A stretch of DNA of 53,602 nucleotides from positions 1-53,602 of IMG/VR virus record IMGVR_UViG_3300028384_001121; one strand, given 5' to 3'. Positions 1 through 51,019 of the stretch are shown piece by piece; position 1 is the stretch's first letter, and each line of letters opens with the position of its first letter. This DNA is from a virus. The notes below the pieces were generated by a model. That model saw only the letters and a program-made list of their open reading frames with translations. It was not told the DNA's origin and made no database searches. The translations under genes were made by a program, and so were the position numbers.

Positions 1-294
1 TTTGTAGGCAGCAGCAGATGCAGAAACTGCAGAGCCGTTGCTGTCAGTGTGGGCTGCAAAGCCAACAGACAAGGTGGTCGAACCTCCGAGCGCATCGTGG
101 GCCAGCTGGCCTTGAAGGATACGCGCACCATTCGGCAGAGCGAACATCTCAATGACATCACCAGATGCCAGCGAAGATGCCTCATATGTGCCGTGTGCTA
201 CGCGAACCTCGCCGCCAAATTCGTTGGCCTTAACGAAGCCGGAAGGGTCGTCCTGAGTCAGCGTGGTGCGCTGAGTGCTATATACAGTAGCCAT
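1..294 (-). CDS. Putative virion structural protein, 3' end outside window
   Basis: The gene runs off the left edge, so only the first 98 residues are visible and the C-terminus is missing. It begins MATVYSTQRTTLTQDDPSG and continues with small-residue, beta-rich sequence (segments such as GDVIEMFALPNGARI and GGSTTLSVGF). That composition is typical of small phage capsid-decoration or minor structural proteins. A strong Shine-Dalgarno sequence, AGGAGG, lies 9 nt before the ATG, inside the 3' end of the giant upstream gene; this decides the start. It follows the virion RNA polymerase gene directly, so it belongs to the same late transcript. The structural role is inferred from composition and context; I do not recognise a named family. 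Confidence 0.7.
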   Translation of the reverse strand, partial: MATVYSTQRTTLTQDDPSGFVKANEFGGEVRVAHGTYEASSLASGDVIEMFALPNGARILQGQLAHDALGGSTTLSVGFAAHTDSNGSAVSASAAAYK

Positions 295-308
295 ATCTCA
301 AGCCCTCC

Positions 309-3300
309 TTATGCCGATTCATCACATACGATGGAAACCAGCTTCTCTTCCTCCATACGGGTCGCCCCGAATGTGGCGCAGTAGTAAACCTGCGTGGAGT
401 AAGATTTATCGGCTCGCTCATCGATACGCGACATGACGTCTTTACCGACAGCCAGCTTGATGCCGTCTTCGGCCCAAGCAAAGCATGTGCGGTTATTGCC
501 GGACTTGGCGAGACGTGTCGAAACATGGAACTGGAAGCCCATGAACGTGTTGATCTCACCTTGAACCAGAGCTTTGACCGTATTGAAATCGCTACTGGTG
601 ACAGTCGTGCTGTTCAGCAGTGATTCAATCTGGTCAGGCCCGACGGCAATGTGACGCTGGATGGATGGGTCAACAGATGCAAGGTCAAGTGTCTTCTTGG
701 CCTCAATCAGTTTCGCCAGTGTCTGCGTATCCAGGCTAAAGTCATCGATATCTGTCTCAAGCAAGTCGTCAATCAAGTCATCACTCGCAACATCATTCTG
801 GTCCATTGACAGGTCCAGTGTCTTGATTGTCACTCCACGTGCTTTGGCATTCTTCTGGATCAAGTCCATAGTAAGTGCCGCCGCTTCGTGTGCGTATGTA
901 CCGGTCTTTACTTGCACTCCTAAGCCTTCAAGCATCTCACCGATATACTTTACGATACGGTCGAGCCATGTCTCGCTTTGGCTCAGCTTGATTTGACTCA
1001 GCTGTTGTGCAAACTCTGGACGAGAAAGCAACTCGGCTACCATCTCTTTCGCGCTGGTAAAGCCGTAGTACTTTTTCATATTCTCTTTGTCCATAGCGAA
1101 GTCATATGCCTCGCTAGCTACCAAGTCAGCTCGCATTGCCATCAGTGGCAGCTCACCGCTCAATACCTGCTTGCGCACTTGAATACCACGCTTGAACTTA
1201 TTGAGATCGTCCAGGTTCAGGCCCATCGCGTTCAACAGCTCTGGGCTTGTAGTCAGCTGGGTATATACCTTCTCGACTTTAGCAATCGCCTCCTTTACCT
1301 CTGCAGGCACACCTTTACGCTGTGCTGCATTCATAGACATTACATCTGAGGTATAGGCGTGTACCATTTCGTGCGCCAAGACGCGCACCAAGCGTGATGT
1401 ATTGCCAGACTCTACCAGCTGCTTCTGCAACTTCAGAGTATGTGTACCACGGTTGTATCCACCGACATTATCCATGTCTGCTACAACCACCTTTACCTGG
1501 CGCTCTTTTGGCAACCCAGCCTCGAAAGCTAGCAACTGACGCAACAAACGATTCTTCAGCACCCCATCGCCGATCTGCTGAGTCACAAACTCAGATACCG
1601 ACATCTCACGAGATTGACCTTGAGCTGCGGATTCCATAGCCGCTTGCTCAGCAGGAGACATTCCTTGGGGCACATCAGCCGCAGGTGCTGCAGGCATATC
1701 CATATTCTGCGCTGCCATCTCTGCTGGACTCATCCCTTGAGGAACATCACTTGAATCAGTGACACCAGTATGTTGCGGACGGCCTGGCTCTACATCATTA
1801 GTAGCATCCATGCCATTGACACGACTTGCCTTATTGGACTTGTTGATGTCCAAGGTGAACTTATGGTCCTCTTGAATATCCAGACCCGGTGTAAACTCCG
1901 TAGCGAAGTAGCTACCACCAGCAGGGTAGGGACCGCTGAACGCAAAGAACGAATCGCGTGTACCATTTGACACCTCCTGGACTTTGTACAAGCCTTTACT
2001 AGTACGGAACCAGCCCATGTATCGCATCTCGCGAGTCACCATGCCGTCTTTCACACGCTTCTTCTTGAAGTCCAGACGCTCTTTCATAGCTTCCTTATTC
2101 AAGTACTGCATATGCTCCGACATGTGCAGCATGATTTGGTCGTGCGCTGCCTCATCAGCACGCCAGCCCTCATAAATCTCGTGACTAAATCCAAGAGCTT
2201 CCTTGATGCCCAACTCCTGCAACAACTCTGCAGGCAAGTACTTACCGTATCCTTTAGATGCAAGCTGTCGTCCCTGTAAAAGGTGGTACACAACCAAGTC
2301 CTCAGCCAGTTGACGTACCGAAGCATCCTTCGAGGTAGCTAACGCCAAGAATGCTGCATGCATTTCAATTGGGCTGACATTCACCTGACGATCACCTTGG
2401 AAAGACACGCGTGGGTATCCCTTTGCCGGGTTCACTTCAGCAATCAAGTGCTTGATAAACAAGTTATTACGCACTTCTGCTTTGGCTGTCTTAGCACTGA
2501 TAAGTCTAGCAGCCATATTATTCTCACCGGTAAAGAACTCTTGACGCAATTCAGCCGCAGAACGTCCGCCTACCTTCTCTGCCCACTGTGCATAGAGGTA
2601 GCCCTTTGCCATATTGAGGTAGTCTTGAGCAAACTCTGGAGATAAGTACATATCCCCGGTACTGCTCTTATCCTCAGAATTCATCAGCTCTACCGCCTTA
2701 CCCATCATCTGCTGATACAGCGGAGTGCGGTATACTGACTCACCCGGCAAGTCTAAAACCTCTTGAATCATGGCATTCAAGTCTCTGTAGACCTGACCGG
2801 ATACCGTCATGCTCAACAGTTCCGACTCTAAGTTATCGACGGTCTCCTTCAAGCCTTTGGCATCAGCTCCTTGCGCTGTCTGCCGCAATGCTTGTGCTGC
2901 CACCTCGCGCTCCATATCAATCTCTGAGCGAGTCTTAGGCATCTTCGTATCAAACTTCATAGCCTTGGCAAACTTGCCTAACGCTCTGCCTACTTGATCC
3001 AGATTATTAAGCGCCATATGGAGTTGGTAGGTCATAGCCGCCTTATCCACTTCCGACATCTGCTCGCCCTGTACCATTGCGAGGAGGTCTGTTTTATTCA
3101 GACGCGGTAACCTACCGTTATTCAAAGCCTCAGACACTCTTTGAGCATTCTCGAATCCTGCTTCTTTTAAAGTATTCATCGCCTCACCAAGCATAGCCTC
3201 ATACTGAGAAGACTCCCGCGCACCTGTCAACTGACGTGATGCACTCTTATCCGCTGTAGCTGCTTGTACTAACGGGGTAGCCATGAAGATACCGATGGTC

Positions 3301-6300
3301 TCCATGTTATATCCCATGTTCGTCAACGCTGACCAGTAGCCCCAAGTCTGGCTATTGATATTCAGCTTAGCCAACAGCTGATTGTTTTCGTTATCTACCG
3401 CGTGGTTCAACAACCGGCTAAACTGCTCTTGACGGGTAATTTTCGTCGGCGCAGTTTCGTAGTCCAACAAGAATGTATCGTCATGGATATCAGTGACACC
3501 AAAGTAACGAGCCTTGTGAGAATCTTTCATCTCGTTGTCCCTATCAACTGCGATATCGACATGCAAGAGAACAGGCCCATAAGTCGTATCTCTCAAGTAT
3601 TGCATAGCTCCAACACCGGCAGACATCTGCTCAATCTGTGAGTGCAATACATTTTGACTAGCAAATACACCAATTGCATCCTTAGCACTACGCGCCACAT
3701 CAGCCTTCAGATCATTGTACTCATACGCCATAGGCATACCCGTAGCTTCACGCATCAACCCAAGCTGCTGACCCAACTCTTCGCTGTAGCCGTCAGTAAC
3801 AGGGCTATGACGTTCGAGTAGTGCCGTAGCATCTTGACTACGAAGACTTGCGTGGTACACATCAATCTGACGATTACGTGCTGACTTGCGGCGTTCCTCT
3901 GCCGTACCGACCTCAGAATCTCCTCGTGCCACTTGTAAGGCTCCATCCACAAGGGATGTCTCATACAAGAAGCCAAACATCTTATCGATATCGTAGTCCT
4001 GACCGATCTGTCCAACCAACTCTTCCGGTACAATCAGAGTATCTCCATAAGACTTAGGCAAGAAGCCTACAATCTCAAAGCTCGCTGAAGACGCTTTCTT
4101 TTGACCCGGAATACGATATGCCAACACCTGGAAAATCTCCTGTGGTAGGCTGTCCATATCGATTGTACCGTCCTCATTCTTGAACTGCTCCAACTGCCCC
4201 GCATACTTCCAAGGCATGATAATCTGATTGGGCTGCTCATATTCCGCAACCTTCAACTTCTTACCATTGAACAGCTTTGACTTGCCCTTCTTTACCCAAA
4301 CGATATCGCTTGCATCCATACCCTCGAGAGTCTGGTACTGCATACCTGTTTCGGGTCGGATAGGACCACTGAAGCCGCTAATCTTCGGCTCGATCAGTTC
4401 CTTACGCAAGATGCTAATCAGCAGCTGCTCGATACGCTGTGCACTTGGGCCTTGACTCAAAGGCGTAAAGAAGGTGCCCGTCTTTTCATCGTACTGCAGG
4501 TGAGCCAACTCGTTCACATCGTAGTTCCGGTCAATGGCCTCTTCTACAATACGTGCAGCCATACGCTTTGCATACTCCGGCCCCTGCACCAAGTTGCCGT
4601 TTTCTACACGCATACCGTACTTCTTCGCAAAGATGTCCATACGAGCGCGTTGCTCTTGAGATCTTGCCTCCATGTACTCGTAGTACAAGTCTCGTCCGCT
4701 TACCGTCTCACCGTCTAATTCAAACGTGACATCCTCAGTTGCCATGTTTGCAAGAATCAGCTTGGCTACCTGTGAGCCATGCACCTTTTCAGTAGACTTC
4801 GACACTGGTACTTCTTGCTGGATACGAACGCTTTCACGCTTGTATTGAATTACCTGATCTTTCAATCCGTCTTGGATGTCTACTTTACCTTCAGCATCGT
4901 GCACATCCACCATATCGGCGAACGGATTGCCCACCTTCAACGCTGAAGTGTATGCTGCCCGCTGAATGTTATTGGCCTCCATAAACTGGCGCAACTCATC
5001 CAATGACTGATTCTTGGTCAACCCAGGCACCAATGGGAAGGATGCACTCTTGATATACAAGAGGTGCCCATCTTTACGCTCTACGGTAACCGGCTTCATG
5101 GGCTGGAACCATCCTCGCTCTTGGTTATTTAATGGAACACCCTCATTAACCTTACGCAGAATGCCCTCGAACTCTTTACGTCCAATCTTGCCTTGTGCAT
5201 ACAGAATAGACAAGTGCTCTTCTGCAGTAGTGTACTCAGCAGCATCAGCGGTATCGTAACCACGATATGCATCTAACTGCTCCTCAGTCATACCCAACTC
5301 CTTCAAGTAGCTCAGGTGTGCAGACTCGGAAATCTTACGCTCTGGCATCACCAGGCTACGGACAGTCTTGTTATTGACGTCCTTCACTTCTTCAAGTACC
5401 GGCTTGCCATTCTTCAACACAGGCTTACCGTCTTCATCATAAGTAGCCCGCATTGCCGTATACGACACTTCTGGAATAACATTACCAGGCGCAATCAGAG
5501 CAGCAAAACGCTTACCCATGTTAGTTGCCGTCTGCTCTGCGCTACCCTTAGCAAAAGCTCCAGGGTCACCCAACAGTGCAGTAGTAACGTTCGTGTTGAA
5601 GTGCATCGCTTCAATGACATACTTCGCCACAAAGCCCATGAATGCATGTTGCTTATTCATAGGATTATCGCGGAAGTCGCTAGCCTCCATACCTACATGC
5701 CGACGCACATAGTCAAACTCTTTCTTTGAGGGGTCAAAGAAGTTAAATCGAGAAATAGTATTCTCTTCGCCCAGCTCGTACAGCATGCCCTCAGCATCCT
5801 CCATAGCCTTGCGGTAGGACTTATCTAATTGAGCTTCGTAAATGTCCCGAGCTGCTTTGTGAATCTCAGCATCAGTACGGTCTTGCATACCGTTCAGTGC
5901 AGGCATCAAGACAAAGCGATCGTTACGCTGCTGCTTGGCATCTAAAGTTGAGAAGACCTCACCCTTCTTCTTTGCCTGTACCGCCCGAATACGTGCCAGC
6001 TCCAAATCGATGCTTGCGCGGATGGTAGTATCGTAGGCTTCTTGCACATTAAAGAAGTCACTCACCCGGTACTCTGCAGGAAGAAGCTGTTCACTTGCTG
6101 GTTGAACAGTCAAGCCTTTCATCTTAAGAGTCAGCGATGGCACCTGAATCAAAGGCATTGTATGCTTGTCTGCCAGTGTCGGCATCATATGCCGGCTATA
6201 CATCTGACGGCCCCCATCGATATAGGTATTGTTATTACCGAAGTATGCCAGTCGTGCGAAGAGACGATCACCCGGCTCCATCTTGTGGAAGTCACGCACA

Positions 6301-9300
6301 TCGCCAAACCCTGCTAGCATCTTGATTCCATCGACATAGCCAAACTTGACATACGGACGATTCTTACGACGCCGCATGCTCATAAGCAATGGGTTATTAC
6401 GCAAGGTCCAATCAGCTTCCATATCTACCGCAAAGACCGCATTACCATTTGCGTCAGTTACAAGCTGCCCTTTCTCGTCAAGAACAGGTTCCATCAAATC
6501 TTGGAACATCTTCTGTGCATGCTTAGGAGCAGTGTATTGCCACCGCAGTTTGCCGCTACCGTCCTTACTACTATTCTGGACAAGGTTATCCTGGTAGTTA
6601 GACAAGACCGCAATAAACCCAGCGATAGCAGGACGTGCGCTTTGCCTATCCTGACCGGGATCAGTAATCGCTAAAGTCTTGTCATCCGATTCCAACGCCT
6701 CTTGCATCCCCATACGGAATGCCCCAAACAAGCTCTTAGCAGACTTAGGATTGACCAAGTCCTTCTCAATACCACGCATGACCTCAACGCCCAAACCAGA
6801 AGTCATCCGGTTACGGCTTGTCAAGGCTTGTGGCGGGATATTCATTCCCAGCTCAACAGCAAACAATCGGCTCAACTCTTGAGCAGCCTTTGCAGGGTCG
6901 CTGTTGTCTGTTGCAATCTTCTCCATTGCCGTGATGAAAGACTTCAACTTTGCATCATTCACCAATACAGTACCGTCTGGCTGACGAGTGTAGAAGCCTT
7001 TGATGATGAACTGGCTCTCCAGCTCTTTCATCACAAACTCTGTCATATTGGTATCGTTACTACTGAACTGGAACACATTTGCTGCCCGTCCAGAGTTCGG
7101 TCCCACTGCTGCCTCACCCTTGTCAACCTTTAGGCTCAAGAACTCCGCAATGTTCTTCGCCATACCGACTACAAACTGGTTGCGCATCATATCGATACGG
7201 TCTAGCTCATTCTCCTTAAACGCGCCACTTTCCACAGACGCGTCATCCAGAATGTTCAGAACCACCTGAAAGTATGGGTAGGTGCCTACATTTTCCTCCA
7301 AGCGCTTCTTCATTGCCGGCCAGTTATACTTAGCCCCAGCCATAGCTTGATTGAGATGCCCGATTAAAGTGCGCTGGTTCACAAACTTGCGACCTAACGC
7401 ACCTACAGTAGTTGCATTACTATGCACATGCTGCACAGTCATCAATGCCAGCTTCAGTTCAAAGCGTAAGGCTGCCTGTGGATCTACACCAAATGCGAAG
7501 TTGTCATCGAATGCAGCCATAGGATTGGCATCCCGCTCGATATCTTCTGCAGTCTTGGCTTGACCTTCTACCACCTCATCGCGATCCTGCTGCAATTCGC
7601 GCACAGCATCTGCCAGTGTACCAGCTTCAAGCTTTACAATACCACGTGACTCTCGCAGCAACTCCAAGAAGCCCAAATCCATCAAACGGTCGAAGCGATT
7701 GGCTTCCAGCATCTTATCGAACGTCTCGACAAAACGCTTTGCCTGCTCATACTTAGGATGCTCGGGCTGCTGAACTACCAGTTTAGCCGCTGCATATCCC
7801 GGCAACTCTAAGATATCATTACGAACCTGACGCTTAAGGTCATCTGCCTTGATTCCTTCGATACGACCAGTAGTCTTACTGTGCCGAAGCATACGTGTTG
7901 CCAGTCGCCCCGTGATAAAGTTCAGCGCATCTTGTGTAACCTTTTGCGCTAAACCTTCAACAGAATACAACTTGCCTGCACGCTGCATGGGGCTGTCCTC
8001 GTCGTAGTTCTCAGGCAACAAGTCCAAGTCTGCAAACTGCTCAAACTGCAAGAGCTGCTCTGGCGTAAGCTCTACTGGCTTGGCTTCTGTATCAGTGCGA
8101 TCCGTTGGCACTTCTACATCGCCCAACTCAATAGTCAGCCGCTCTACTGGATTACCGTAAGTCTTACCATCAATAACCAAAGGCACACGTTCGTCAAACG
8201 ACATGTGGTTCAAGTAGTACTGCTTAACGCTTACCGGACGATCGATTTGCACAATCCCCGTTTCACCATCAACCTTAAAGCCTTCAAAGACTTGGCTTAC
8301 ATTGTCACGGTGCTCAAACGAAGTATTGCGGCGCATAGCAGCAATACGCTTAACTGCCTGAGCCTGGAAGCTCTGATTTGACAGCTTGTGTGAGCGCAAG
8401 AAACTACGCATCTCCTTGCCAGTACTCTTTGACTCAAACGTTGCGACATCATCATAGATACGCAAGCCTGGATCAACAGCACTAGGGTAATAAATGAGAG
8501 CCGGGCGCTTACCAAAGGTTTTGTGCTCGGTAGACCCCACCTCACTATGTGTGCCGTTCTCGAGCATCAGGTACTGCTTAAGAACACTGTGAAAGCTATC
8601 GACCAGACGCTTGTTATCGATGACGCCTGCTGCATTGCGGATATCCCATCCAAATGCCTCCTCCATGTTCTTTACAGTCGCATTAGCTGCATCCAGTGTC
8701 AGACCCATAGATTGGTCCACCTTACCGGTGACAACTAAGGCAACAGCTCTTTCAGCGGTCAGCAAGCCAAACGCCAACTCGTCGCCAACCGCACGCATAT
8801 TAGCTGGGACGTAGAACAGGTCTCCACTCGCATTATCCTTGACAATCGCATATGGCTTACTCAGGATGTTCCGGCCGCTATTGGTCAGAGGTTCTGACGG
8901 CATTGTCATATCCGGACGGGTAAAGAACTGGAACTCCTCTTGCTGACCACGAGTGCTCCAAGCACCAATGTCTACGAGATTCTCTTCTGTCAATACACCC
9001 TTAGCATCACGAGGCTGTTCAATCCGCGTTCCTCCATACTGTGCCCGCGTAACAAACTTCACGCGAGCTGTACGTGGCTCAGCAAGAGACAAGAACAAGT
9101 CGTTTGTATCTGAAGTACGTGGCTCAGTGCGGAAGATGTTACCACGCACACTGTAGTGAATTACATCTGTCAAGACCCCATCCACTTCCTCTCGCCCCCG
9201 ACTCAGTGTCACCTCTTCTCCTACACGTACACCATTTTGTGTGATATCCTGGGATGCTTCTGGGTAGCGTGGGTTGAGCTGGCCCGTCATACGCGGGTCA

Positions 9301-12300
9301 TCTACCACCACCTTTAAGGTGTACTCCTTTTTCTCTAACGCAGGATTTTCTGGCTCACTGTTGTCTACAGGCTGGGCACTCTGCTGCTCCTCGTCTGCCA
9401 CCTGTGCTGGTGACTTGCCTTGAGGTTCAGTAGGCACTACAGCTACAGGCTTCTTTTGAGACGGATCTACATCCTCTGCAACCTCCTGCTGCGGCTCAAC
9501 CTCAGTCTGAGTATTTGCAGCTTCAGCCGGCGACACTCCCTCTGGTACCTCCGTAGTCTCAGGGGCTGGCTGACTCAAGTCTTCAAACATAGCAGCACTT
9601 GGTGGCTGAGAACCCGGAGGTCCATCCACATTATCAGGTGCTTGCTCGGCTTGCTGCTGGGCTTCTGCAGGCGACATACCCTGTGGCGTGTCTGGCGTTT
9701 CACCTAAGTCCGCCGCTTCAGCACGACGTTCTTCCTCCATTGCCTCTTCCTCCTCGTCCTCGTTACGCTTTACTACGGAACGCACACTGTTCTCCATACG
9801 TGCGATAAAGCGCTCGTAGCCTCCAGGCTTAGTCAAATCGTTGAACGCCTCAATCATTTCTTGACGATCACGTGCAACTTCACGCAAATCCTCACGGAGT
9901 TCCTCAATCTCAGTCATATCTACCTCAGTAACTCCACGCTTGCCCATAGCAGCAAGAGCACGATTGTAGTTTACCAAGTCATCCAGCTGCTGATTGAAGC
10001 CTTCTAAATCGTAGTTATATGCGCCTGCTTTACCCTTAGCCCGGTACCCTTTCCGCAGTGCCTCTTTTTTGTCAAGCAGCTCCTTCAGTTTTGCGTTGCG
10101 CTCCTCGCTCTGTTCAGAAGACTCTACCTCATCAATTTCGTCCTCAATAGCCGTGAGCTTGTCAATCTGCGCTTGAGTCATACTAAGCTCTAACTCAAGC
10201 TGCGTACCGTCTAAAATGGCTTCACCATTCATGCCTTTGATTCGCTCTGCTAACGATTCGGCAATTGCCTTCTCACGAGCATCGCGGTCCTTGGTATTGT
10301 ACACCAAGTTGGCAATAGCGTTGAGAGCGTCATGATTTTCGCCACGATAGATCTCTCTAGCCTTACGGTAGGCATCCCGCACCTCATTCATACGATTAGA
10401 GTACTGCTCGTATGCTTGAGTTTTGCGCGAACGCAACTCCTCATCAGTCATGTCCTGTGCAGCAGGCCCTAACATTTCACGGTAGTCTTCCACAGACATA
10501 CTATCAAGAAGCTCTTTGGCTTCAATCATGCTGTCCTCAAACCGACCAGTAAGAATCTTACTGCTAGCATGAGAGAAGATAGAATTGGCTTCATTGTCCT
10601 TGAGACCTTTGAAGTCATTCTGGTTCGCCATGACATCTGCCTGACGTACCAACCCTCGCTGCGTAATAGCGTTATTCAACTCAGCAGCTAAGTGCTTACC
10701 TACATCACCCTCTTGCTCGTGCAGCTTGATGATGCGATCCATCACAGCATCTCGCTCAGCATTGTCTTTCCGCACCTGAGTAAAGCCACCCACAAATGCA
10801 GGACGTACTTTCTTACCTGTTTCAGGGTCGACCTCACTGTAAGCATTGGCAATCATAATGTTAGGAATACCAAAGGCTCCCAACAACATACCAATACCTA
10901 CCTCTTTCAAACCTTCAGCCGTACCATAACTACCCTTGATACCTTCAACAAAACTGCTGACAAGGTTTTCAGTGTCTTTATGGTTACGGGGGTCATAGCG
11001 GTGTGAGATATAGTCCTCAAAGCCTCGACTAATCACACCCTGTCCACCCTCTTCAACTAAACCTTCATAGAGTGCAGTACCTGCTACACCGGTACCTGGT
11101 GTCAAACGACGTAAGTTTCGACCTGTTCGTGTAGCGCGGCTTGCATCTACGAGACGAGGTAGCTGTCCCTCTTTGACACCCATACGCTTAGCCATCTGCT
11201 GGCGTGCCTTAGCAGTCAGCTTAGTGGTGTCAACAAACTTAGTCTGGCGCAAACCATTTCGTAGGCCACTGCCAAAAAGCTTCGGGAACATCAGCATGTT
11301 CGAAGCTCCTACCAGTGCCATATTCGTCATAAACGCAGTATTACCGTATCCAGTAATCTCATCACGGAATGCTGCCTCCATTTCTGGAGTGTAAGAGCCT
11401 TCGCCATTCTCCAACTCGTACTCACGCTTATGATCTTCGCCCGCTGCGTTCATCATGTGACGAGCTTCCATACCAGCCTCCATACCAGCACCAGTAAGCA
11501 ACTGACGACTCATACGTCCTGCTGCCGTTAAACCTGCTTTACGCGCTCCAGCTGCACCGCTTGCACGAAGTCCTGCCTCTGCTGCTTCACGAGTAGCCGA
11601 AGATGCCAACTGCGCTTCTGCTCGAACCACATCATCCAAAAGCTGTGTGCCAATAACTCGCTTACCGCCAGTCACTGCCTTCTTCAATAGACGTGTGCCT
11701 CTTGCAACAATACCAGCTGTAGCCGCAGCCTGAGCAGGCGCAGCGCCTCCCAAAGTCAGTGCCGTAGCCGCTGTCATTCCTAGCTCAGTGAGAATTGCAC
11801 CAGCCACAAACGACACACCACCAAGAACGTCATCAAATACAAAGTTGGTAACCTGCTGCATCCCGCTTTGATTACCACCACGCTTAATATCAAAGTACTT
11901 ATCGTACTCTTCTTGCGCACTATCTAAAGCGTTAGAAACCGCGTTGTCGTAAATCTTATGGAACTCGCCATTGACCACCATACTAGGCAAGCCATAGAGC
12001 AGCGTTGCAAAGCCTTGTGCAACATTGATGCCGGTGTCCCCTACAAACTGGAACATACCGTTGCGAATCTTTTCTAAGTTGCCCTGTGCAGCTTGAGAAC
12101 GATTGTAAACATCCTCAATACCCGTATTGGTAAAGCCGTCATCCAACCCACTTACGCGAGTAGACATGCCGCCCAACCACTTCTGATCCTTGAACTGGTC
12201 AAAGTCAACGTCTTGTTGCGCATCAAAAACATTATTGATTCCAAAGACACCATCCTTAGATTCATACAGCATATCACTGAACTGACCTAAGTCTAATTCA

Positions 12301-12413
12301 GAGCTTTTCTGTTCCTCTACGGGTTCCGGTTGACCCTGCAATGCATCACGAATCTCGTCTTCAGTGATGTTAGTATGCAAGCCAAGGTTTACGAGATTGT
12401 TTTTATCAGCCAT
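309..12413 (-). CDS. Giant multidomain virion RNA polymerase (DxDxD) with C-terminal zinc-peptidase domain
   Basis: This 4034-aa protein starts at ATG 12413; a TTG lies three codons upstream, but the ATG overlaps the previous stop by 8 nt and fits better. The N-terminal third (about residues 130-530) has several hydrophobic, Ala/Gly-rich segments that could insert in membranes. Residues about 600-900 are charged and helical. The centre carries the RNA polymerase beta'-like double-psi barrel signature: YRIPGQKKAS, then GFLPKSYGDTLIVP, then DYDIDKMF, with metal-binding candidates D2806, D2808 and D2810. This DxDxD loop defines crAss-like virion polymerases such as Cellulophaga phage phi14:2 gp66, which is injected to transcribe early genes. 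Near the C-terminus, HEMVH (3681-3685) and a downstream AKEMVAELLS segment look like a gluzincin peptidase. PQGMSPAE-type repeats flank the polymerase part. It is far longer than phi14:2 gp66, suggesting fusion of several cargo proteins. Confidence 0.85.
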   Translation of the reverse strand: MADKNNLVNLGLHTNITEDEIRDALQGQPEPVEEQKSSELDLGQFSDMLYESKDGVFGINNVFDAQQDVDFDQFKDQKWLGGMSTRVSGLDDGFTNTGIEDVYNRSQAAQGNLEKIRNGMFQFVGDTGINVAQGFATLLYGLPSMVVNGEFHKIYDNAVSNALDSAQEEYDKYFDIKRGGNQSGMQQVTNFVFDDVLGGVSFVAGAILTELGMTAATALTLGGAAPAQAAATAGIVARGTRLLKKAVTGGKRVIGTQLLDDVVRAEAQLASSATREAAEAGLRASGAAGARKAGLTAAGRMSRQLLTGAGMEAGMEARHMMNAAGEDHKREYELENGEGSYTPEMEAAFRDEITGYGNTAFMTNMALVGASNMLMFPKLFGSGLRNGLRQTKFVDTTKLTAKARQQMAKRMGVKEGQLPRLVDASRATRTGRNLRRLTPGTGVAGTALYEGLVEEGGQGVISRGFEDYISHRYDPRNHKDTENLVSSFVEGIKGSYGTAEGLKEVGIGMLLGAFGIPNIMIANAYSEVDPETGKKVRPAFVGGFTQVRKDNAERDAVMDRIIKLHEQEGDVGKHLAAELNNAITQRGLVRQADVMANQNDFKGLKDNEANSIFSHASSKILTGRFEDSMIEAKELLDSMSVEDYREMLGPAAQDMTDEELRSRKTQAYEQYSNRMNEVRDAYRKAREIYRGENHDALNAIANLVYNTKDRDAREKAIAESLAERIKGMNGEAILDGTQLELELSMTQAQIDKLTAIEDEIDEVESSEQSEERNAKLKELLDKKEALRKGYRAKGKAGAYNYDLEGFNQQLDDLVNYNRALAAMGKRGVTEVDMTEIEELREDLREVARDRQEMIEAFNDLTKPGGYERFIARMENSVRSVVKRNEDEEEEAMEEERRAEAADLGETPDTPQGMSPAEAQQQAEQAPDNVDGPPGSQPPSAAMFEDLSQPAPETTEVPEGVSPAEAANTQTEVEPQQEVAEDVDPSQKKPVAVVPTEPQGKSPAQVADEEQQSAQPVDNSEPENPALEKKEYTLKVVVDDPRMTGQLNPRYPEASQDITQNGVRVGEEVTLSRGREEVDGVLTDVIHYSVRGNIFRTEPRTSDTNDLFLSLAEPRTARVKFVTRAQYGGTRIEQPRDAKGVLTEENLVDIGAWSTRGQQEEFQFFTRPDMTMPSEPLTNSGRNILSKPYAIVKDNASGDLFYVPANMRAVGDELAFGLLTAERAVALVVTGKVDQSMGLTLDAANATVKNMEEAFGWDIRNAAGVIDNKRLVDSFHSVLKQYLMLENGTHSEVGSTEHKTFGKRPALIYYPSAVDPGLRIYDDVATFESKSTGKEMRSFLRSHKLSNQSFQAQAVKRIAAMRRNTSFEHRDNVSQVFEGFKVDGETGIVQIDRPVSVKQYYLNHMSFDERVPLVIDGKTYGNPVERLTIELGDVEVPTDRTDTEAKPVELTPEQLLQFEQFADLDLLPENYDEDSPMQRAGKLYSVEGLAQKVTQDALNFITGRLATRMLRHSKTTGRIEGIKADDLKRQVRNDILELPGYAAAKLVVQQPEHPKYEQAKRFVETFDKMLEANRFDRLMDLGFLELLRESRGIVKLEAGTLADAVRELQQDRDEVVEGQAKTAEDIERDANPMAAFDDNFAFGVDPQAALRFELKLALMTVQHVHSNATTVGALGRKFVNQRTLIGHLNQAMAGAKYNWPAMKKRLEENVGTYPYFQVVLNILDDASVESGAFKENELDRIDMMRNQFVVGMAKNIAEFLSLKVDKGEAAVGPNSGRAANVFQFSSNDTNMTEFVMKELESQFIIKGFYTRQPDGTVLVNDAKLKSFITAMEKIATDNSDPAKAAQELSRLFAVELGMNIPPQALTSRNRMTSGLGVEVMRGIEKDLVNPKSAKSLFGAFRMGMQEALESDDKTLAITDPGQDRQSARPAIAGFIAVLSNYQDNLVQNSSKDGSGKLRWQYTAPKHAQKMFQDLMEPVLDEKGQLVTDANGNAVFAVDMEADWTLRNNPLLMSMRRRKNRPYVKFGYVDGIKMLAGFGDVRDFHKMEPGDRLFARLAYFGNNNTYIDGGRQMYSRHMMPTLADKHTMPLIQVPSLTLKMKGLTVQPASEQLLPAEYRVSDFFNVQEAYDTTIRASIDLELARIRAVQAKKKGEVFSTLDAKQQRNDRFVLMPALNGMQDRTDAEIHKAARDIYEAQLDKSYRKAMEDAEGMLYELGEENTISRFNFFDPSKKEFDYVRRHVGMEASDFRDNPMNKQHAFMGFVAKYVIEAMHFNTNVTTALLGDPGAFAKGSAEQTATNMGKRFAALIAPGNVIPEVSYTAMRATYDEDGKPVLKNGKPVLEEVKDVNNKTVRSLVMPERKISESAHLSYLKELGMTEEQLDAYRGYDTADAAEYTTAEEHLSILYAQGKIGRKEFEGILRKVNEGVPLNNQERGWFQPMKPVTVERKDGHLLYIKSASFPLVPGLTKNQSLDELRQFMEANNIQRAAYTSALKVGNPFADMVDVHDAEGKVDIQDGLKDQVIQYKRESVRIQQEVPVSKSTEKVHGSQVAKLILANMATEDVTFELDGETVSGRDLYYEYMEARSQEQRARMDIFAKKYGMRVENGNLVQGPEYAKRMAARIVEEAIDRNYDVNELAHLQYDEKTGTFFTPLSQGPSAQRIEQLLISILRKELIEPKISGFSGPIRPETGMQYQTLEGMDASDIVWVKKGKSKLFNGKKLKVAEYEQPNQIIMPWKYAGQLEQFKNEDGTIDMDSLPQEIFQVLAYRIPGQKKASSASFEIVGFLPKSYGDTLIVPEELVGQIGQDYDIDKMFGFLYETSLVDGALQVARGDSEVGTAEERRKSARNRQIDVYHASLRSQDATALLERHSPVTDGYSEELGQQLGLMREATGMPMAYEYNDLKADVARSAKDAIGVFASQNVLHSQIEQMSAGVGAMQYLRDTTYGPVLLHVDIAVDRDNEMKDSHKARYFGVTDIHDDTFLLDYETAPTKITRQEQFSRLLNHAVDNENNQLLAKLNINSQTWGYWSALTNMGYNMETIGIFMATPLVQAATADKSASRQLTGARESSQYEAMLGEAMNTLKEAGFENAQRVSEALNNGRLPRLNKTDLLAMVQGEQMSEVDKAAMTYQLHMALNNLDQVGRALGKFAKAMKFDTKMPKTRSEIDMEREVAAQALRQTAQGADAKGLKETVDNLESELLSMTVSGQVYRDLNAMIQEVLDLPGESVYRTPLYQQMMGKAVELMNSEDKSSTGDMYLSPEFAQDYLNMAKGYLYAQWAEKVGGRSAAELRQEFFTGENNMAARLISAKTAKAEVRNNLFIKHLIAEVNPAKGYPRVSFQGDRQVNVSPIEMHAAFLALATSKDASVRQLAEDLVVYHLLQGRQLASKGYGKYLPAELLQELGIKEALGFSHEIYEGWRADEAAHDQIMLHMSEHMQYLNKEAMKERLDFKKKRVKDGMVTREMRYMGWFRTSKGLYKVQEVSNGTRDSFFAFSGPYPAGGSYFATEFTPGLDIQEDHKFTLDINKSNKASRVNGMDATNDVEPGRPQHTGVTDSSDVPQGMSPAEMAAQNMDMPAAPAADVPQGMSPAEQAAMESAAQGQSREMSVSEFVTQQIGDGVLKNRLLRQLLAFEAGLPKERQVKVVVADMDNVGGYNRGTHTLKLQKQLVESGNTSRLVRVLAHEMVHAYTSDVMSMNAAQRKGVPAEVKEAIAKVEKVYTQLTTSPELLNAMGLNLDDLNKFKRGIQVRKQVLSGELPLMAMRADLVASEAYDFAMDKENMKKYYGFTSAKEMVAELLSRPEFAQQLSQIKLSQSETWLDRIVKYIGEMLEGLGVQVKTGTYAHEAAALTMDLIQKNAKARGVTIKTLDLSMDQNDVASDDLIDDLLETDIDDFSLDTQTLAKLIEAKKTLDLASVDPSIQRHIAVGPDQIESLLNSTTVTSSDFNTVKALVQGEINTFMGFQFHVSTRLAKSGNNRTCFAWAEDGIKLAVGKDVMSRIDERADKSYSTQVYYCATFGATRMEEEKLVSIVCDESA
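1647..1742 (-). repeat. Two PQGMSPAE peptide repeats (C-terminal side of the polymerase)
   Basis: Two exact copies of the octapeptide PQGMSPAE lie at 1719-1742 (residues 3558-3565) and 1647-1670 (residues 3582-3589) of the giant protein. They sit in a Pro/Ala/Gln-rich linker between the polymerase part and the zinc-peptidase domain. The codons of the two copies differ at several third positions, so they are conserved at protein level. Confidence 0.85.
9402..9686 (-). repeat. Three PQG-x-SPA peptide repeats (N-terminal side of the polymerase)
   Basis: Three copies of the same octapeptide motif lie in an acidic Pro/Gln/Glu-rich linker of the giant protein. They are PQGMSPAE at 9663-9686 (residues 910-917), PEGVSPAE at 9522-9545 (957-964) and PQGKSPAQ at 9402-9425 (997-1004). 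They separate the membrane-like N-terminal part from the polymerase part and match the two copies some 2560 residues downstream. Confidence 0.85.
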
Positions 12414-13938
12414 TGATGCCAAGGTTCTTCATGATTTGCATGCCTAAGATCTGACGAACTTCTGCTTCACTCGATACAATAACAGATTTTCCTCCTACCG
12501 TTGCACGTGTACCATCCTGATTATAGATAGCAAACATGCCGTCTTCTTTCCTTACGTCAAGTTGTGCAACTCCAGAGCTAAACTCATTCACCTCATTGTT
12601 TGCTGCGAAGGCATGCAAATCTGGAGCATACATCGAGCCATACATTGGAATTGCAGCCCGCCGCACCACGCTCGTAGACTGGTTGAAATTAGCAAGCTGT
12701 GCGTTAAAGCCGCCCATATTCTCAGTGACGTTGGCAATATCACCAGCATTCATCTCAACGTAAGTCTTACCCCCAGCAATACGATTGCCCTTGCTATCCA
12801 CAGTTTTCATATTCAACTCGAGTACGGGTAAGCCATTAGGTCCGACATTACCGGTTAGTCGCACCGCTTCAATGTCATCATCGCTAATGGGTTGTGACGA
12901 ACCTTTGCGCGGTACAAAGTTGTTGAATTCGTCTAACGGTACAATATCCCTATCACCTTGATACAAGAAACGCAACTGGTTATCTAAACCGCTGTCTTTT
13001 GCCTGGTCATCAAAGCTAATAGTCACCTGATCCGGGCTTTCTAAATCTCCATCGGTAATCACAGAACCTCCTTGACCGCTGGCAAGAATTGATTTGTTCT
13101 TAAGACCGCTATACATACCTCCGCTGTCGAAGTCCGTCTTGCTTGCACGGCCTCCACCTAAGTAACGCTTACCGGTTGTATACAGCTGGTTTTGCAACTC
13201 CTGAATCACCATGCCCTTTTCCTCATTCGTCAGTCGAGTGTATGGTACAGCTTCCCCCCCGCGTTGACGTGCAGAAATCTGCTGAGCTAAGAAGTTTACA
13301 TGCGTCCGCCCGCCTGGTGTTCCCTGGTAGTAGTTCAGTGCGCCGTTCTCAGGGTCTTGAATAAATTCTTGCAAAGCGGCATCGCTCTTTACGATGTCCG
13401 TATTGCTACGGAAGACCTGATCCATTGCCTTACCAAAGTCTGGGATACGCGTAGGAACTCCATTGAACTGGCGCACCTCATTAGTATTCGGGTCTACCGT
13501 ACTAAAGAACTGGCCCATATCCCCGTCCATCATTACGTTCTCCGTTCCTAACTGCGCAACCAAGGCACGGTACTTAGTATCAGCTTCCTGATAGCGCTTT
13601 GTGTTATTACGTACTGCCGCGTATGTCTGGTCTCCCATCATGTCGGAAACCATCTTCTTGATTTGACGAGAATACCCGGGCAAGTTCTTTTCCTTACTTG
13701 CCTGCTCGATACTCGCGTCGACCTGATTCCACATATTTTGCAGATAGGCTTTGTCTCCTTCTGGAGCCGCCGCAATCTGGTCCGCAAGAACCTGCTTCAT
13801 CTTGCTTGTAGCTTGCTGAGTCTGCATAGCCTGCCGATCTAAACGATCGTACAGCCGCGCTACAGATTGTGTAGGTACGCCCACCATACTGGGCTTGTAC
13901 TCAACGAATTTCGGAATCTGTGGTAAGTATACAGCCAT
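12406..13938 (-). CDS. Internal virion (cargo) protein candidate, 510 aa
   Basis: No enzymatic motif is visible. The first 130 residues are helical and Gln/Met-rich (for example QTQQATSKMKQVLADQ), followed by a mixed alpha/beta region with SPDQVTISFDDQ and KTYVEMNAGDIANV. The gene lies between the lysozyme-fusion protein and the giant polymerase, the position taken by 'cargo' genes in crAss-like phages, whose products are packaged and ejected with the DNA. It starts 2 nt after the upstream stop, and its own stop overlaps the polymerase start, so the three genes are translationally coupled and probably made in linked amounts. The function is inferred from context only. Confidence 0.65.
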   Translation of the reverse strand: MAVYLPQIPKFVEYKPSMVGVPTQSVARLYDRLDRQAMQTQQATSKMKQVLADQIAAAPEGDKAYLQNMWNQVDASIEQASKEKNLPGYSRQIKKMVSDMMGDQTYAAVRNNTKRYQEADTKYRALVAQLGTENVMMDGDMGQFFSTVDPNTNEVRQFNGVPTRIPDFGKAMDQVFRSNTDIVKSDAALQEFIQDPENGALNYYQGTPGGRTHVNFLAQQISARQRGGEAVPYTRLTNEEKGMVIQELQNQLYTTGKRYLGGGRASKTDFDSGGMYSGLKNKSILASGQGGSVITDGDLESPDQVTISFDDQAKDSGLDNQLRFLYQGDRDIVPLDEFNNFVPRKGSSQPISDDDIEAVRLTGNVGPNGLPVLELNMKTVDSKGNRIAGGKTYVEMNAGDIANVTENMGGFNAQLANFNQSTSVVRRAAIPMYGSMYAPDLHAFAANNEVNEFSSGVAQLDVRKEDGMFAIYNQDGTRATVGGKSVIVSSEAEVRQILGMQIMKNLGING

Positions 13939-13940
13939 GA

Positions 13941-16900
13941 TTATTGTTGTCTGTAGCCAGTAATATTACCTGCAGCATCATAAATAGGCACCATGCCCCC
14001 TTGAGATTGACCTCCGGTTGCAGCTTGTTGTGCATTCATTGCTCCAGTATCAAACTGGCGGCCAATGCCCTCAAGGGTATTAGCCATGTTAGTCTGGTAG
14101 ATATTCTTTAAGTAGTCCTGTGCAGCCCCACTAATAACATTCAGTGGCTGTTGCTTTACTGCTGCTTGAGCTTGCGTCATAGCATTGTCAAAATTAACCT
14201 GATCCTGCGCATACTGATTCAACATCGCGTTGTTCGTATTCCGAACCTGATTTGCCATCATCTCGTAGCGATTCAGTGCCTGCTGACGCATCTGGTCATC
14301 TGTCTGACGGATACGTGCTTCTTGCTGCAAACGCTGAGTATTCAAACTCTGCGCAAGTGCCGCTTGCTGAGTACCCTGCAAGTTGGTGTTTGCACCGGCA
14401 GCGCGTGAAGCCTCACGAGCATCCATCAACTGTTGCCCCACATTACTGCGGTAATCAAAGTTTGCAATTGTGTTGAGGTTAGGACGAGCTGGGCCTTCCA
14501 TAGAGTTTAAAGCACGCCGCTGGACACCTGCACTAGCTAAACTCGCTAAAGCTGGTACTGCCATAAGCGGAGACATCTTACCCATATCGATGTTGTACTT
14601 ATCGCCCTCACCCATGTCAAAGTCCTTAAGAGGAGTTTCATCAGGCAACCCAGCTACCTTCTCACCTCCTATCTCTTCTCCACCTCCAACAGGGTCGGTC
14701 TTCACTGGTGGCACTGTATCGATACCATCATCCAAAACGTCCCCTGTTACTCCGCTTGTATCCGGAGCCTGACTACCAAACTGACGTGGGTCAAACTGCG
14801 GGAAGTATGTCATACCGGCCTGCAAGCCCAGTCGCTCCAATGCCAACGGTGTACGTGTAAAGATGTTTCCTCCAATACCAGAGGCGCGTTCGATGGTAGG
14901 AATCTGACCCATTGCATCGTCTGCCAAGCCTACTACACCTCTTTGCATAGCGGACCGAGCAGGTAAGCCAGTCATAGGGTTCACTGGCGCTAATGCAGTA
15001 GATCCCTGACGTGTCGTTTGTAACCCAACATTCCGTACTGCAGGAAGACGTGAGCCAGGTAATGACAACCCTCCAGGTTGCACACCACCAAACTGCCCAC
15101 CTTTGCCCCCTGCACTACCTGCAGGCATTCTAAACTGCCCGCGATTTACACCAAGAATACCACCGGCACCATCGTCTAATACATTGACCCCTGACTGACG
15201 AATCTGTTGCTCAGCTGTCAGTGCTCCCGTCTTTGTTTTCGATACTGGAGTAATATCAATCGTCCGGCCTGCAGCATTACGTGCAGGTACATATGTTGGA
15301 GACTGTCCCTGCGCACCCGTGCCAGGCTTAAACTTCATTCCGGGCACTCCCTTTACAGCAGGTCCAGCACTACCCTGTGGCAGCATCTTTTGACCCTGCC
15401 CCAAAAGCTTGGTTTCTTGTGCTACCGCTAAATTCAGCGCAGCGTCATCACCAGCTTGCAACGCCGCTACTGCATCATCTCCTAAGCTACGCCCAAGAGC
15501 TGCACTCCCACGCGATACGGCAGCACCACGGGCAGCAGTAACTGCACCAGGTGCAATAAACTGACCTGCCAAACCATATGTTTGCTGGCGGTTTTGAAAG
15601 CGAGTTTGGAAGTCAGCATTACCCGTATTGTAAGCTACGTAATCACTGTATGGGCTGTACCCACCAACACCTACGCGCTCAGTACCCGACTCATCAGTAA
15701 ACTTAAATGTACCGGGGTTAGCTGCAATCTCTGCATAGATTGCTTCCATCTCGCGATCATACCGCTTCTTATCCTCAGGGTCGGTAGAGGTAGTCGTATA
15801 TGACTTACCCATATCACCCATCATGCGGTTATATACCTTCTTAGCAGGCTTAATCCCGCGCTGTTCAGCTACCAGGCTTGCCACCTCCTTAAAGGACATA
15901 CCCATACCGGATTGCAACTCAGATTCCTGCCCACCGCCAATCGTCATTGAGACCATAGCAGCGTCCATATCCAAGCTCATATTTTGCTGAGTAGGATCTG
16001 CAAAAACTGATGCAAATAGAGATGCTCGGTCTCCATCCGTTGCCGGCCCATCTACATCATCCAAATACGGAATAGCAGAAGACAGGGACTCTTGGATAGA
16101 TTCTGGACCTTTCCAGTCTTTGGCTCGAATAACATACTTGCCCTGGAAGCCAGAGCTGCCAACGCGACCGTATCCACCCTCTAAGTTGCCAAAAGCCTTA
16201 TCCGGAACAATGACATTATAATCGCCAAACTCATTACGAGCATAGGTGATATTAGAACCAGCAATATTATTGCCCGTTTCTGTTGCCTTAGCAGAGTTAA
16301 AGTCTAACCCAACTAAGTCCATCCCCTCCCTTTCTTGAGCCAATCTCGAATCTGCTTGTGCAACGGGAGGCACACCTCCTCCATCTTGTCCAAGTACCGC
16401 AGCCTTCTCTTGCTGCGCTTCAGGACTTAACATGAAGTCCGGAGTATTCATTAAGCCCGGGTCAGGAGCTGCCGCAGATTGTGATGCTGAAGTAGCCGGT
16501 ACAGCCTGTTGTGCAAACTGTTGCATCTTACCCATAGCCGAAGAGTACTGGTCATACGTCTCAGCCATTTTAGCGGGATCTTGAGCAGTCGACTTTGGCA
16601 GTGTACCGCCAGATGCAACGACCGCATAGGTTCCATTAAGAACTTCTTGAATTTGCTCAGGAGTTGGGTTAGGCGTACTCAAATCAAAATCTACATACCC
16701 CTCTACTCCCTTACCACTTTCCGCTGTAAAGTATGCAGCGGCAGCCCCAGCTACCTTGTCATCTAACAACAAATCGGGGTTCTTAACCAGGCGGTCATCT
16801 CCATACACAGCCTGACTAACGCGACGGTAGTTTTCCTTACCGGTTACTTGAACTAAGCCACGGCCTCGATACTTATAGCCGTCCCCTTCAGCACTATTAC

Positions 16901-17441
16901 CCGCGACATCATCGTATACAAAGTTGAAGAACTTTTCAGGATCAGCTTTAAGAGCATTTAGATCCTCGTCGGACATATCCTTGAACTTCCTTTTGAAGCG
17001 GGAATTAAGTGTTCTAATACGTTCATTAGACGTATTAGCATAGTTCATCTCCTCTCGCGTACCCGAACCTCCACTTTCTTTCTGCGTTACTGCCGCTACT
17101 GCCGCAGCAATCGCCGGACTCATACCGTACTCAGCTGCAAGCGTATCAACCATAGCTTGCTGTGCTCCTGTAATACCGAACCCACTAGCGCCAGTGCCAC
17201 TTGCACTACCGCCTAAGTTCATCTGTTGCACTGGCTGTGGCTGCTTACCTACACGCATCTCCTCATTCTTACCCTGCAAAGCTGCCAAAGCACTCTTGCC
17301 CTTTTTCATATTAAGCCGCGCACTATTGGCGAGCGGTCCTACAGGATAGCGGCGCAGAGTTTCCTCTTGCTTCGAGATATATGCCGCAAGCTGTTGAGCA
17401 ACCTCGGCGGGCGTCATCATTTTTTTCTTCTTGCGACTCAT
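13941..17441 (-). CDS. Virion-associated GH19-type lysozyme fused to a large internal protein
   Basis: This is an 1166-aa protein. Residues about 90-300 resemble glycoside hydrolase family 19 (chitinase/lysozyme-like) domains. The candidate catalytic glutamate is E122 in QKESGG, and the family's substrate-cleft signature is YRGRGLVQVTGKENYR near 191-206. Such domains cut peptidoglycan and would open the wall during DNA ejection. The remaining 850 residues are Gly/Ala/Gln-rich, with a central AAVSRGSAALGR-type region and a C-terminal coiled-coil-like segment rich in Gln and Asn (about 960-1120). This size and context fit an internal virion protein rather than a free endolysin. The gene overlaps the previous one by 4 nt (ATGA type). 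Confidence 0.75.
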   Translation of the reverse strand: MSRKKKKMMTPAEVAQQLAAYISKQEETLRRYPVGPLANSARLNMKKGKSALAALQGKNEEMRVGKQPQPVQQMNLGGSASGTGASGFGITGAQQAMVDTLAAEYGMSPAIAAAVAAVTQKESGGSGTREEMNYANTSNERIRTLNSRFKRKFKDMSDEDLNALKADPEKFFNFVYDDVAGNSAEGDGYKYRGRGLVQVTGKENYRRVSQAVYGDDRLVKNPDLLLDDKVAGAAAAYFTAESGKGVEGYVDFDLSTPNPTPEQIQEVLNGTYAVVASGGTLPKSTAQDPAKMAETYDQYSSAMGKMQQFAQQAVPATSASQSAAAPDPGLMNTPDFMLSPEAQQEKAAVLGQDGGGVPPVAQADSRLAQEREGMDLVGLDFNSAKATETGNNIAGSNITYARNEFGDYNVIVPDKAFGNLEGGYGRVGSSGFQGKYVIRAKDWKGPESIQESLSSAIPYLDDVDGPATDGDRASLFASVFADPTQQNMSLDMDAAMVSMTIGGGQESELQSGMGMSFKEVASLVAEQRGIKPAKKVYNRMMGDMGKSYTTTSTDPEDKKRYDREMEAIYAEIAANPGTFKFTDESGTERVGVGGYSPYSDYVAYNTGNADFQTRFQNRQQTYGLAGQFIAPGAVTAARGAAVSRGSAALGRSLGDDAVAALQAGDDAALNLAVAQETKLLGQGQKMLPQGSAGPAVKGVPGMKFKPGTGAQGQSPTYVPARNAAGRTIDITPVSKTKTGALTAEQQIRQSGVNVLDDGAGGILGVNRGQFRMPAGSAGGKGGQFGGVQPGGLSLPGSRLPAVRNVGLQTTRQGSTALAPVNPMTGLPARSAMQRGVVGLADDAMGQIPTIERASGIGGNIFTRTPLALERLGLQAGMTYFPQFDPRQFGSQAPDTSGVTGDVLDDGIDTVPPVKTDPVGGGEEIGGEKVAGLPDETPLKDFDMGEGDKYNIDMGKMSPLMAVPALASLASAGVQRRALNSMEGPARPNLNTIANFDYRSNVGQQLMDAREASRAAGANTNLQGTQQAALAQSLNTQRLQQEARIRQTDDQMRQQALNRYEMMANQVRNTNNAMLNQYAQDQVNFDNAMTQAQAAVKQQPLNVISGAAQDYLKNIYQTNMANTLEGIGRQFDTGAMNAQQAATGGQSQGGMVPIYDAAGNITGYRQQ

Positions 17442-18613: not shown

Positions 18614-18919
18614 TTAGCATTTCCAACGTCGGCGAGCCTGACGAATACGTGAATTAGGATTATTACGAGTCTTAGCACTAGAACGCTTAAGCTGTCCTAA
18701 AGATCGTGCACAATATGACTTGCGACGCTTAGCAGCCTTACTACCCTTTTTGACCTTACCAGTAACAGCCGTCTTGAGCTTACTGCCTGGGTTTGCCTTG
18801 CGATAGGCACGTACACCTTTGGCAGTCATTCCCGCACCTTTTTTGGTTGGGCGGTAGTTGGCTCCCTTGCCTTTGGTCGTTTTCCGTATCGGATTCGATT
18901 TGCGTCGTTTGGTTGCCAT
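18614..18919 (-). CDS. Highly basic small phage protein, 101 aa
   Basis: Thirty-six of 101 residues are Lys or Arg. The central motif GAGMTAKGVRAYRKANPGSK, followed by RRKSYCARSLGQ, is a pattern I associate with small uncharacterised proteins of large aquatic phages (possibly DUF6321-like; not checked). The charge suggests nucleic-acid binding, for example DNA condensation in the capsid, but this is inference. It starts inside the stop of the upstream coiled-coil gene (TAATG). Confidence 0.75.
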   Translation of the reverse strand: MATKRRKSNPIRKTTKGKGANYRPTKKGAGMTAKGVRAYRKANPGSKLKTAVTGKVKKGSKAAKRRKSYCARSLGQLKRSSAKTRNNPNSRIRQARRRWKC

Positions 18920-19125
18920 TACTTGTCCATTTGATTGCGCGCAAGAAGGAGCTTAATCTCTGCCAGATCACTTGCAAGTTGTTCCAAAGAGCGCTCAATC
19001 TTCTTGTTGCCATTTTCCAAAGAGTATACGCGACTAGTCAACTTGGTAACTTCCCCATGTAGTTTTACATAGACGCCCACCAAGCCAACAGCCAGCAGAA
19101 TTAGTTCGTAGTCCGTAAGATCCAT
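18919..19125 (-). CDS. Small membrane protein with coiled coil, 68 aa
   Basis: One N-terminal transmembrane segment (about residues 7-22, ELILLAVGLVGVYVKL) is followed by a coiled coil with heptad leucines (VTKLTSRVYSLENG ... IERSLEQLASDLAEIKLLL). This layout is shared with small holin-like or spanin-like lysis proteins and with tiny virion membrane anchors. The basic-protein cassette around it gives no lysis context, so the role stays open. Both ends overlap neighbours as TAATG. Confidence 0.65.
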   Translation of the reverse strand: MDLTDYELILLAVGLVGVYVKLHGEVTKLTSRVYSLENGNKKIERSLEQLASDLAEIKLLLARNQMDK

Positions 19126-19430
19126 TATCGTTTACGTTTCGTAGTTGTACGTTTCTTCCTACTCGTAGTGCGCTTTGCACCACGCTTGACGGGAGAAACA
19201 CGTGTAGGCTTACCACCTGGGTTGCCCTTACGCACTTTCTCACGAACCTTTCTGCGCTTCTCGCTTTTAGACATCTCTCCAGACGTCTTCGGAGTCTTGC
19301 TATTTACCCGCTTTGTCGGACGGCAGTATGGATAAGGACGCTTTGACCCGCCCTTTGCCGACTTACGCCCACACGCTTTACCGGTGCGGACATCCTTCCA
19401 CTCTTCTTTAAACCACCGACGCAAGCTCAT
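19125..19430 (-). CDS. Highly basic small phage protein with WFKEEW motif, 101 aa
   Basis: The N-terminus SLRRWFKEEWKDVRTGKACG, followed by RPYPYCRPTKRV, is a pattern I associate with small proteins of large phages and giant viruses. Three Cys/Pro-rich positions may form a compact fold. The C-terminal half is almost entirely Lys, Arg, Ser and Thr; in total 39 of 101 residues are Lys/Arg, ending in a protamine-like tail TSRKKRTTTKRKR. DNA binding or packing is likely from charge alone. Confidence 0.75.
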   Translation of the reverse strand: MSLRRWFKEEWKDVRTGKACGRKSAKGGSKRPYPYCRPTKRVNSKTPKTSGEMSKSEKRRKVREKVRKGNPGGKPTRVSPVKRGAKRTTSRKKRTTTKRKR

Positions 19431-51014: not shown

Positions 51015-51019
51015 CGTCG

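Follow-up and report, generated by a model that had tools for sequence, protein, structure and literature searches.

A probable crAss-like virion RNA polymerase encoded as a single chain of ∼4970 residues, and its probably misassembled end in one virus record

A minus-strand open reading frame of 4034 codons lies at one end of the stretch of DNA analysed here (the window), which is an entire IMG/VR virus record of 53,602 bp. What does so long a frame encode, and is all of it native to the phage? An earlier note, made from the sequence, had described the product as a crAss-like virion polymerase far longer than phi14:2 gp66, with a membrane-like N-terminal third and a metallopeptidase motif at the C-terminus, and had suggested that it makes its own membrane channel and processes itself. 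The frame indeed runs without interruption. We put at roughly 0.85 the probability that the giant gene product is the virion RNA polymerase of a marine crAss-like phage, a single chain of ∼4970 residues, and that the end of the window is misassembled. We infer the marine setting from the relatives of the phage. Judged from sequence, the native layout comprises a gp47-type N-terminal domain, a linker, a middle region, a two-barrel core, a second linker, a zincin and a helical gp49-type domain; in the window copy, the last ∼1060 native residues appear to have given way to sequence from another phage, joined on by misassembly (Table 1).

Table 1. Positions of the giant reading frame, its parts and neighbouring genes in the window
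Feature	Window position	Strand	Remark
ORF, 4034 codons, no interruption	309–12413	−	Residues 1 to ∼3897, native vRNAP fusion (truncated); ∼3898–4034, foreign
N-terminal domain, residues 1–885, crAss001 gp47-like	9759–12413	−	hhalign, tblastn
Low-complexity linker 1, residues 886–1045	9279–9758	−	Three xPxGxSPAE/Q copies
Region 1046–2044, poorly characterised	6282–9278	−	∼1460–2010 resembles Fpv1 gp33 (hhalign 76.8%)
Predicted two-barrel RNA polymerase core, residues 2045–3345	2379–6281	−	phi14:2 vRNAP / crAss001 gp50 type
HGSQVAK, residues 2545–2551	4761–4781	−	Alignment to GSQxxK of 6VR4
DYDID catalytic motif, residues 2806–2810	3984–3998	−	Alignment to DFDID of 6VR4
Low-complexity linker 2, residues 3515–3600	1614–1871	−	Two DVPQGMSPAE copies
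Zincin-type metallopeptidase domain, residues 3601–3890	744–1613	−	
HEMVH (HExxH), residues 3681–3685	1359–1373	−	
Junction word ACACTGGCGAAACTGATTGA	703–722	−	Same in foreign capsid genes
Foreign DNA: remaining Phage_capsid_2 major capsid gene (to 309) and start of next gene (294–1)	1–702	−	
510-aa protein, putative crAss001 gp46 (cargo protein 2) counterpart	12406–13938	−	Position, size
1166-aa protein, putative gp45 (cargo protein 1) counterpart	13941–17441	−	Position; endolysin/GH19-like segment
1448-aa virion protein (phrog_15100), putative muzzle-protein counterpart	19942–24288	−	Position
Own major capsid protein, crAss-like	44179–45606	−	
Portal protein (phrog_6547)	46792–48993	−	
Terminase large subunit, crAss-like	49005–51023	−	

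The middle of the protein is, on sequence and predicted fold, a crAss-like two-barrel RNA polymerase. Residues 2353–2816 match the phi14:2 virion RNA polymerase (6VR4) with an E value of 6.5e-21 (phmmer), and a nine-sequence family profile matches it at 2.6e-33. When the core segment of the family alignment was compared with known proteins (hhalign), scores of 99.4% and 99.8% were obtained for crAss001 gp50 and phi14:2 gp077, respectively. An AF2 model of residues 2045–3240, built from 21 sequences (pLDDT 81, pTM 0.77), had 6VR4 as its best Foldseek match (E 5.6e-32, TMq 0.72), followed by QDE-1 (1.9e-5) and then, weakly, by RNA polymerases of the P23-45/P74-26 type; the region 2500–3200, for which a two-barrel polymerase had been predicted, thus matches one. 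Residues D2806, D2808 and D2810 fall on the catalytic motif of 6VR4 (DYDID versus DFDID) and are preceded by YRIP...GFLP...GDTLIVP, whose columns are invariant or nearly so across the family, in keeping with the proposal that this stretch is a crAss-like polymerase signature. HGSQVAK likely lies in the beta-type barrel. The claim of a crAss-like virion polymerase much longer than phi14:2 gp66 holds, being borne out by the sequence, the predicted fold, the tree of the family and the order of the genes.

To account for the length, we compared segments of the family alignment (hhalign) with the separate proteins of crAss001, phi14:2, Dulem virus 41 and Fpv1. The N-terminal segment matched crAss001 gp47 (98.8%), and the N-terminal part also gave tblastn matches to crAss001 gp47 and csAssE-Sib. 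The C-terminal segment, from a gp49-like part that makes up the last ∼1080 residues of the native chain, matched gp49 (96.9%), phi14:2 gp076 (97.9%) and a 1331-aa protein of Dulem virus 41 (98.9%). Neither the N-terminal nor the last domain had a Pfam match above the cut-off, and no PDB match was found for the last domain using an AF2 model that was itself poor (pLDDT 63.5, pTM 0.38). On these matches, the native protein joins the gp47-, gp50- and gp49-type cargo proteins, separate in crAss001, in the gene order of phi14:2, and its great length follows from this fusion.

Full-length fusions of 4910–5256 aa are found in seven related contigs (L002, L004, L005, L006, L008, L009 and L104). In a tree of the core, the fully fused proteins form a clade with support of 100/100 that is adjacent to the Fpv1-type clade (98/96), and crAss001, Dulem 41 and phi14:2 fall outside both, with long-branch caveats. 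Full fusion thus appears to mark one clade, the Fpv1-type phages being partly fused. It may not be universal, since the chain is encoded by two ORFs in L007 (875–18153), with a gene split or frameshift in linker 2, and the giant gene of L105 (3485–19251) is interrupted in the last domain, that of its close relative L104 being intact. One caveat here is that metagenome contigs can conceal frameshifts. In a distant relative, L116 (644–17785), a 5714-residue ORF combines RNAP and gp49-type regions and lacks HExxH; this may be a fusion that arose independently. Fusions of crAss virion RNA polymerases to large proteins are already known in general (PMC10770324); in the literature searched, where coverage of key papers was incomplete, we found no account of the complete three-part fusion.

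Between the core and the last domain lies the zincin. The HE..H residues are invariant in all eight aligned members, as are two glutamates of an (E)xVA(E)-type motif downstream of HEMVH. The domain gave weak matches to the SprT, M48, M76 and M91 families, and hhalign scores of 96.0% against phi14:2 gp076, 95.1% against N4 C1 and 94.8% against a phiKMV-type internal virion protein, whose close relative PDB 9sfn chain G was matched at E 5e-6. By sequence it groups with metallopeptidases known from phage polyvalent proteins, to which N4-like RNA polymerases are nearly always fused and for which polypeptide processing has been proposed (PMC5512222). A match of one zincin to another is on its own no proof of a special relation between these phages. 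As for the earlier placement of an HExxH domain at the C-terminus, the motif is present, but the terminus is not the native one: ∼1280 residues follow the motif in L002.

The two linkers carry five copies of the motif xPxGxSPAE/Q, at residues 910, 957 and 997 and, as DVPQGMSPAE, at 3558 and 3582 (window ∼9400–9690 and 1640–1745, minus strand), and it occurs nowhere else in the window. The copies have diverged at synonymous positions, serine for instance being encoded by AGT in some and by TCT in others, and this indicates selection at the peptide level. The linker-to-linker similarity of L002 was reached in 0 of 1000 shuffles and that of L104, which involves a different motif, in 4 of 1000; five other members examined showed none. 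We thus reject a motif conserved across the family, as only the window and L002 have this one and L104 has another. The motifs fit docking or processing sites and prove neither, and candidate targets of the zincin are the linkers of its own chain and a host protein.

Could this chain be an injection machine in itself, which also provides the membrane channel and undergoes self-cleavage? A Kyte–Doolittle scan yielded one borderline hydrophobic segment (residues 191–209, score 1.64), and the Ala plus Gly content is 22–26% in residues 1–500 only, so the description of the N-terminal third as Ala/Gly-rich and membrane-like was overstated. The idea draws some support from a similarly placed segment in phi14:2 gp078 (172–190), from the entry of the N-terminal domain of N4 vRNAP into nanodiscs (PMC12633501) and from the position of the zincin next to linkers that bear a repeated motif. 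However, the lone marginal segment is missing, at the same threshold, in about half of the full-length relatives, the N4 N-terminal domain is not significantly matched, and channel formation in crAss001 is assigned to gp45/gp46 (PMC10172136), the positional counterparts of which are separate genes here. These data leave the proposed channel and self-cleavage unsupported and make a self-cleaving, channel-forming machine unlikely.

A second alternative is that the family consists of structural or ejection proteins in which the polymerase core is no longer active. PHROGs does class it as a virion structural protein only, but the three catalytic aspartates and HGSQVAK are invariant in the close family, and the three aspartates of the DYDID motif remain so across 21 divergent members, which makes loss of activity very improbable.

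The end of the reading frame tells a different story. From residue ∼3898 on, its translation is that of a Phage_capsid_2 major capsid protein in its C-terminal half (PF19821, E 1.1e-42; phrog_3437, E 4.1e-39). The PF19821 match covers model positions 153–293 only and lies past the junction; a full PF19821 capsid domain native to the giant protein was not found. The closest annotated relatives of this piece are pelagiphages, mostly at 61–70% identity, and downstream of it a 98-aa ORF has its match in the gene adjoining that capsid gene (HTVC203P: 28319–28735 and 28043–28303). The resident major capsid protein is a different one, of crAss-like type.

Contig L002 aligns to window positions 703–15517 at 91.8% nucleotide identity, which breaks off sharply at 703; its giant protein, a 96.8%-identical relative, continues past the junction for ∼1060 further native residues, to a total of 4966 aa. 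Four capsid-bearing contigs (L012–L015) match window positions 1–722 at 85% and then run on upstream as a capsid gene. At the junction, these contigs have ACACTGGCGAAACTGATTGA exactly as in the window and L002 differs by one base, so the word common to both parents is 14–20 bp. GC skew shifts near position 700, and no more than 703 bp separate the junction from the end of the contig. From the break in identity to L002, the shared junction word, the donor's next gene and the shift in GC skew, we conclude that the window end is probably a k-mer-type assembly chimera with an unrelated pelagiphage-type piece. That the capsid-like end is instead real, the product of a recombination that left the polymerase with a capsid fragment as its anchor in the head, can be dismissed as scarcely credible, for although the frame crosses the junction without a stop, the sudden loss of L002 identity and the short donor word coincide there, the next donor gene follows, the contig end and the skew change are close by, and the native C-terminal domain is present in every other full-length member. 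We flag this IMG/VR record as misassembled, since it would otherwise suggest a false polymerase–capsid fusion.

The polymerase gene lies beside virion cargo and structural genes, and their order parallels that in crAss001 and phi14:2, the cargo genes being assigned by position only. Given the endolysin/GH19-like segment of the 1166-aa protein, cargo protein 1 may include a domain that degrades the wall. The major capsid protein matches those of crAss phages at 33–35%, and the large terminase subunit matches those of Fpv phages at 40%. Two small, very Lys/Arg-rich proteins, encoded among the virion genes at 18614–18919 and 19125–19430, possibly condense DNA. A search of GTDB genomes for the host gave one stray match to a Nanoarchaeota MAG contig, which was unusable.

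By analogy with phi14:2 and crAss001 (PMC10172136), the fusion protein would be packed in the head as cargo and would leave it after the gp45/gp46-type proteins, the chain being threaded through the tail partly unfolded and N-terminus first. The polymerase would then refold in the host and transcribe early genes, and the N-terminal domain may keep it near the entry site. Packaging, ejection and early transcription are thus modelled on these relatives. Linked in this way, the three subunits would be present in equal numbers, be ejected in order and come to lie together at the incoming DNA. The union of three RNAP-associated cargo proteins indicates joint action and fixes a 1:1:1 ratio, and the fused chain provides a single protein to express in studies of the functions of gp47 and gp49.

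How does this protein compare with known systems? The phi14:2 vRNAP (gp66 in PMC10770324, PDB 6VR4, GenBank tag gp077) has a homologous two-barrel core, and its neighbour gp076 is homologous to the zincin and last domain, in the same order; the other neighbour, gp078, stands in place of the N-terminal part, with an hhalign score of only 24.1%. These counterparts, annotated from virion MS/MS, are three separate proteins (1797, 2180 and 1421 aa) rather than one chain. In crAss001, gp47, gp50 and gp49 are homologous to all three parts and are present in virions by MS (PMC10172136), but they are separate genes (2341, 2412 and 1349 aa), partly on opposite strands, and their sole HExxH is near the end of gp47. 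Flavobacterium phage Fpv1 has a giant virion protein, gp33 (4401 aa), in which the RNAP and an HExxH region are fused; its gp49-type domain is a separate gene, gp34 (1596 aa).

The layout recurs outside the crAss-like phages. N4 gp50 (Schitoviridae) likewise has an N-terminal domain, linker, RNAP, linker, homologous zincin and large C-terminal domain, described as a membrane domain, the RNAP, an HExxH domain and a 1125-aa helical domain of new fold (PMC12633501). Its RNAP, however, is of the right-hand, T7-like type, and the two-barrel core of the window protein has no match to it; nor did the N4 N-terminal and last domains match their counterparts in the window family significantly (hhalign), the last-domain model being poor. 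Thus, the layout is shared, only the zincin is demonstrably homologous, and the polymerase folds are unrelated. The phiKMV-type internal virion protein (LKD16 gp37, a close relative of PDB 9sfn chain G) has a homologous zincin over ∼150 columns, no RNAP and an annotated endolysin domain. We raise, as a tentative and rather doubtful idea, that the podovirus-like ejection systems phiKMV-type gp37, N4 gp50 and crAss gp47/50/49 are built on one old ejection chassis, recognisable by a homologous zincin, which took up unrelated RNAPs, a right-hand enzyme in N4 and a two-barrel one in crAss; the marine fusion would then be the one-chain crAss counterpart of the N4 vRNAP, and its motif-bearing linkers processing or docking sites. 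The C-terminal region of the N4 vRNAP inhibits transcription (PMC12633501), and an N4-like layout with a homologous zincin and an unrelated polymerase makes the role of such a region testable in a second system.
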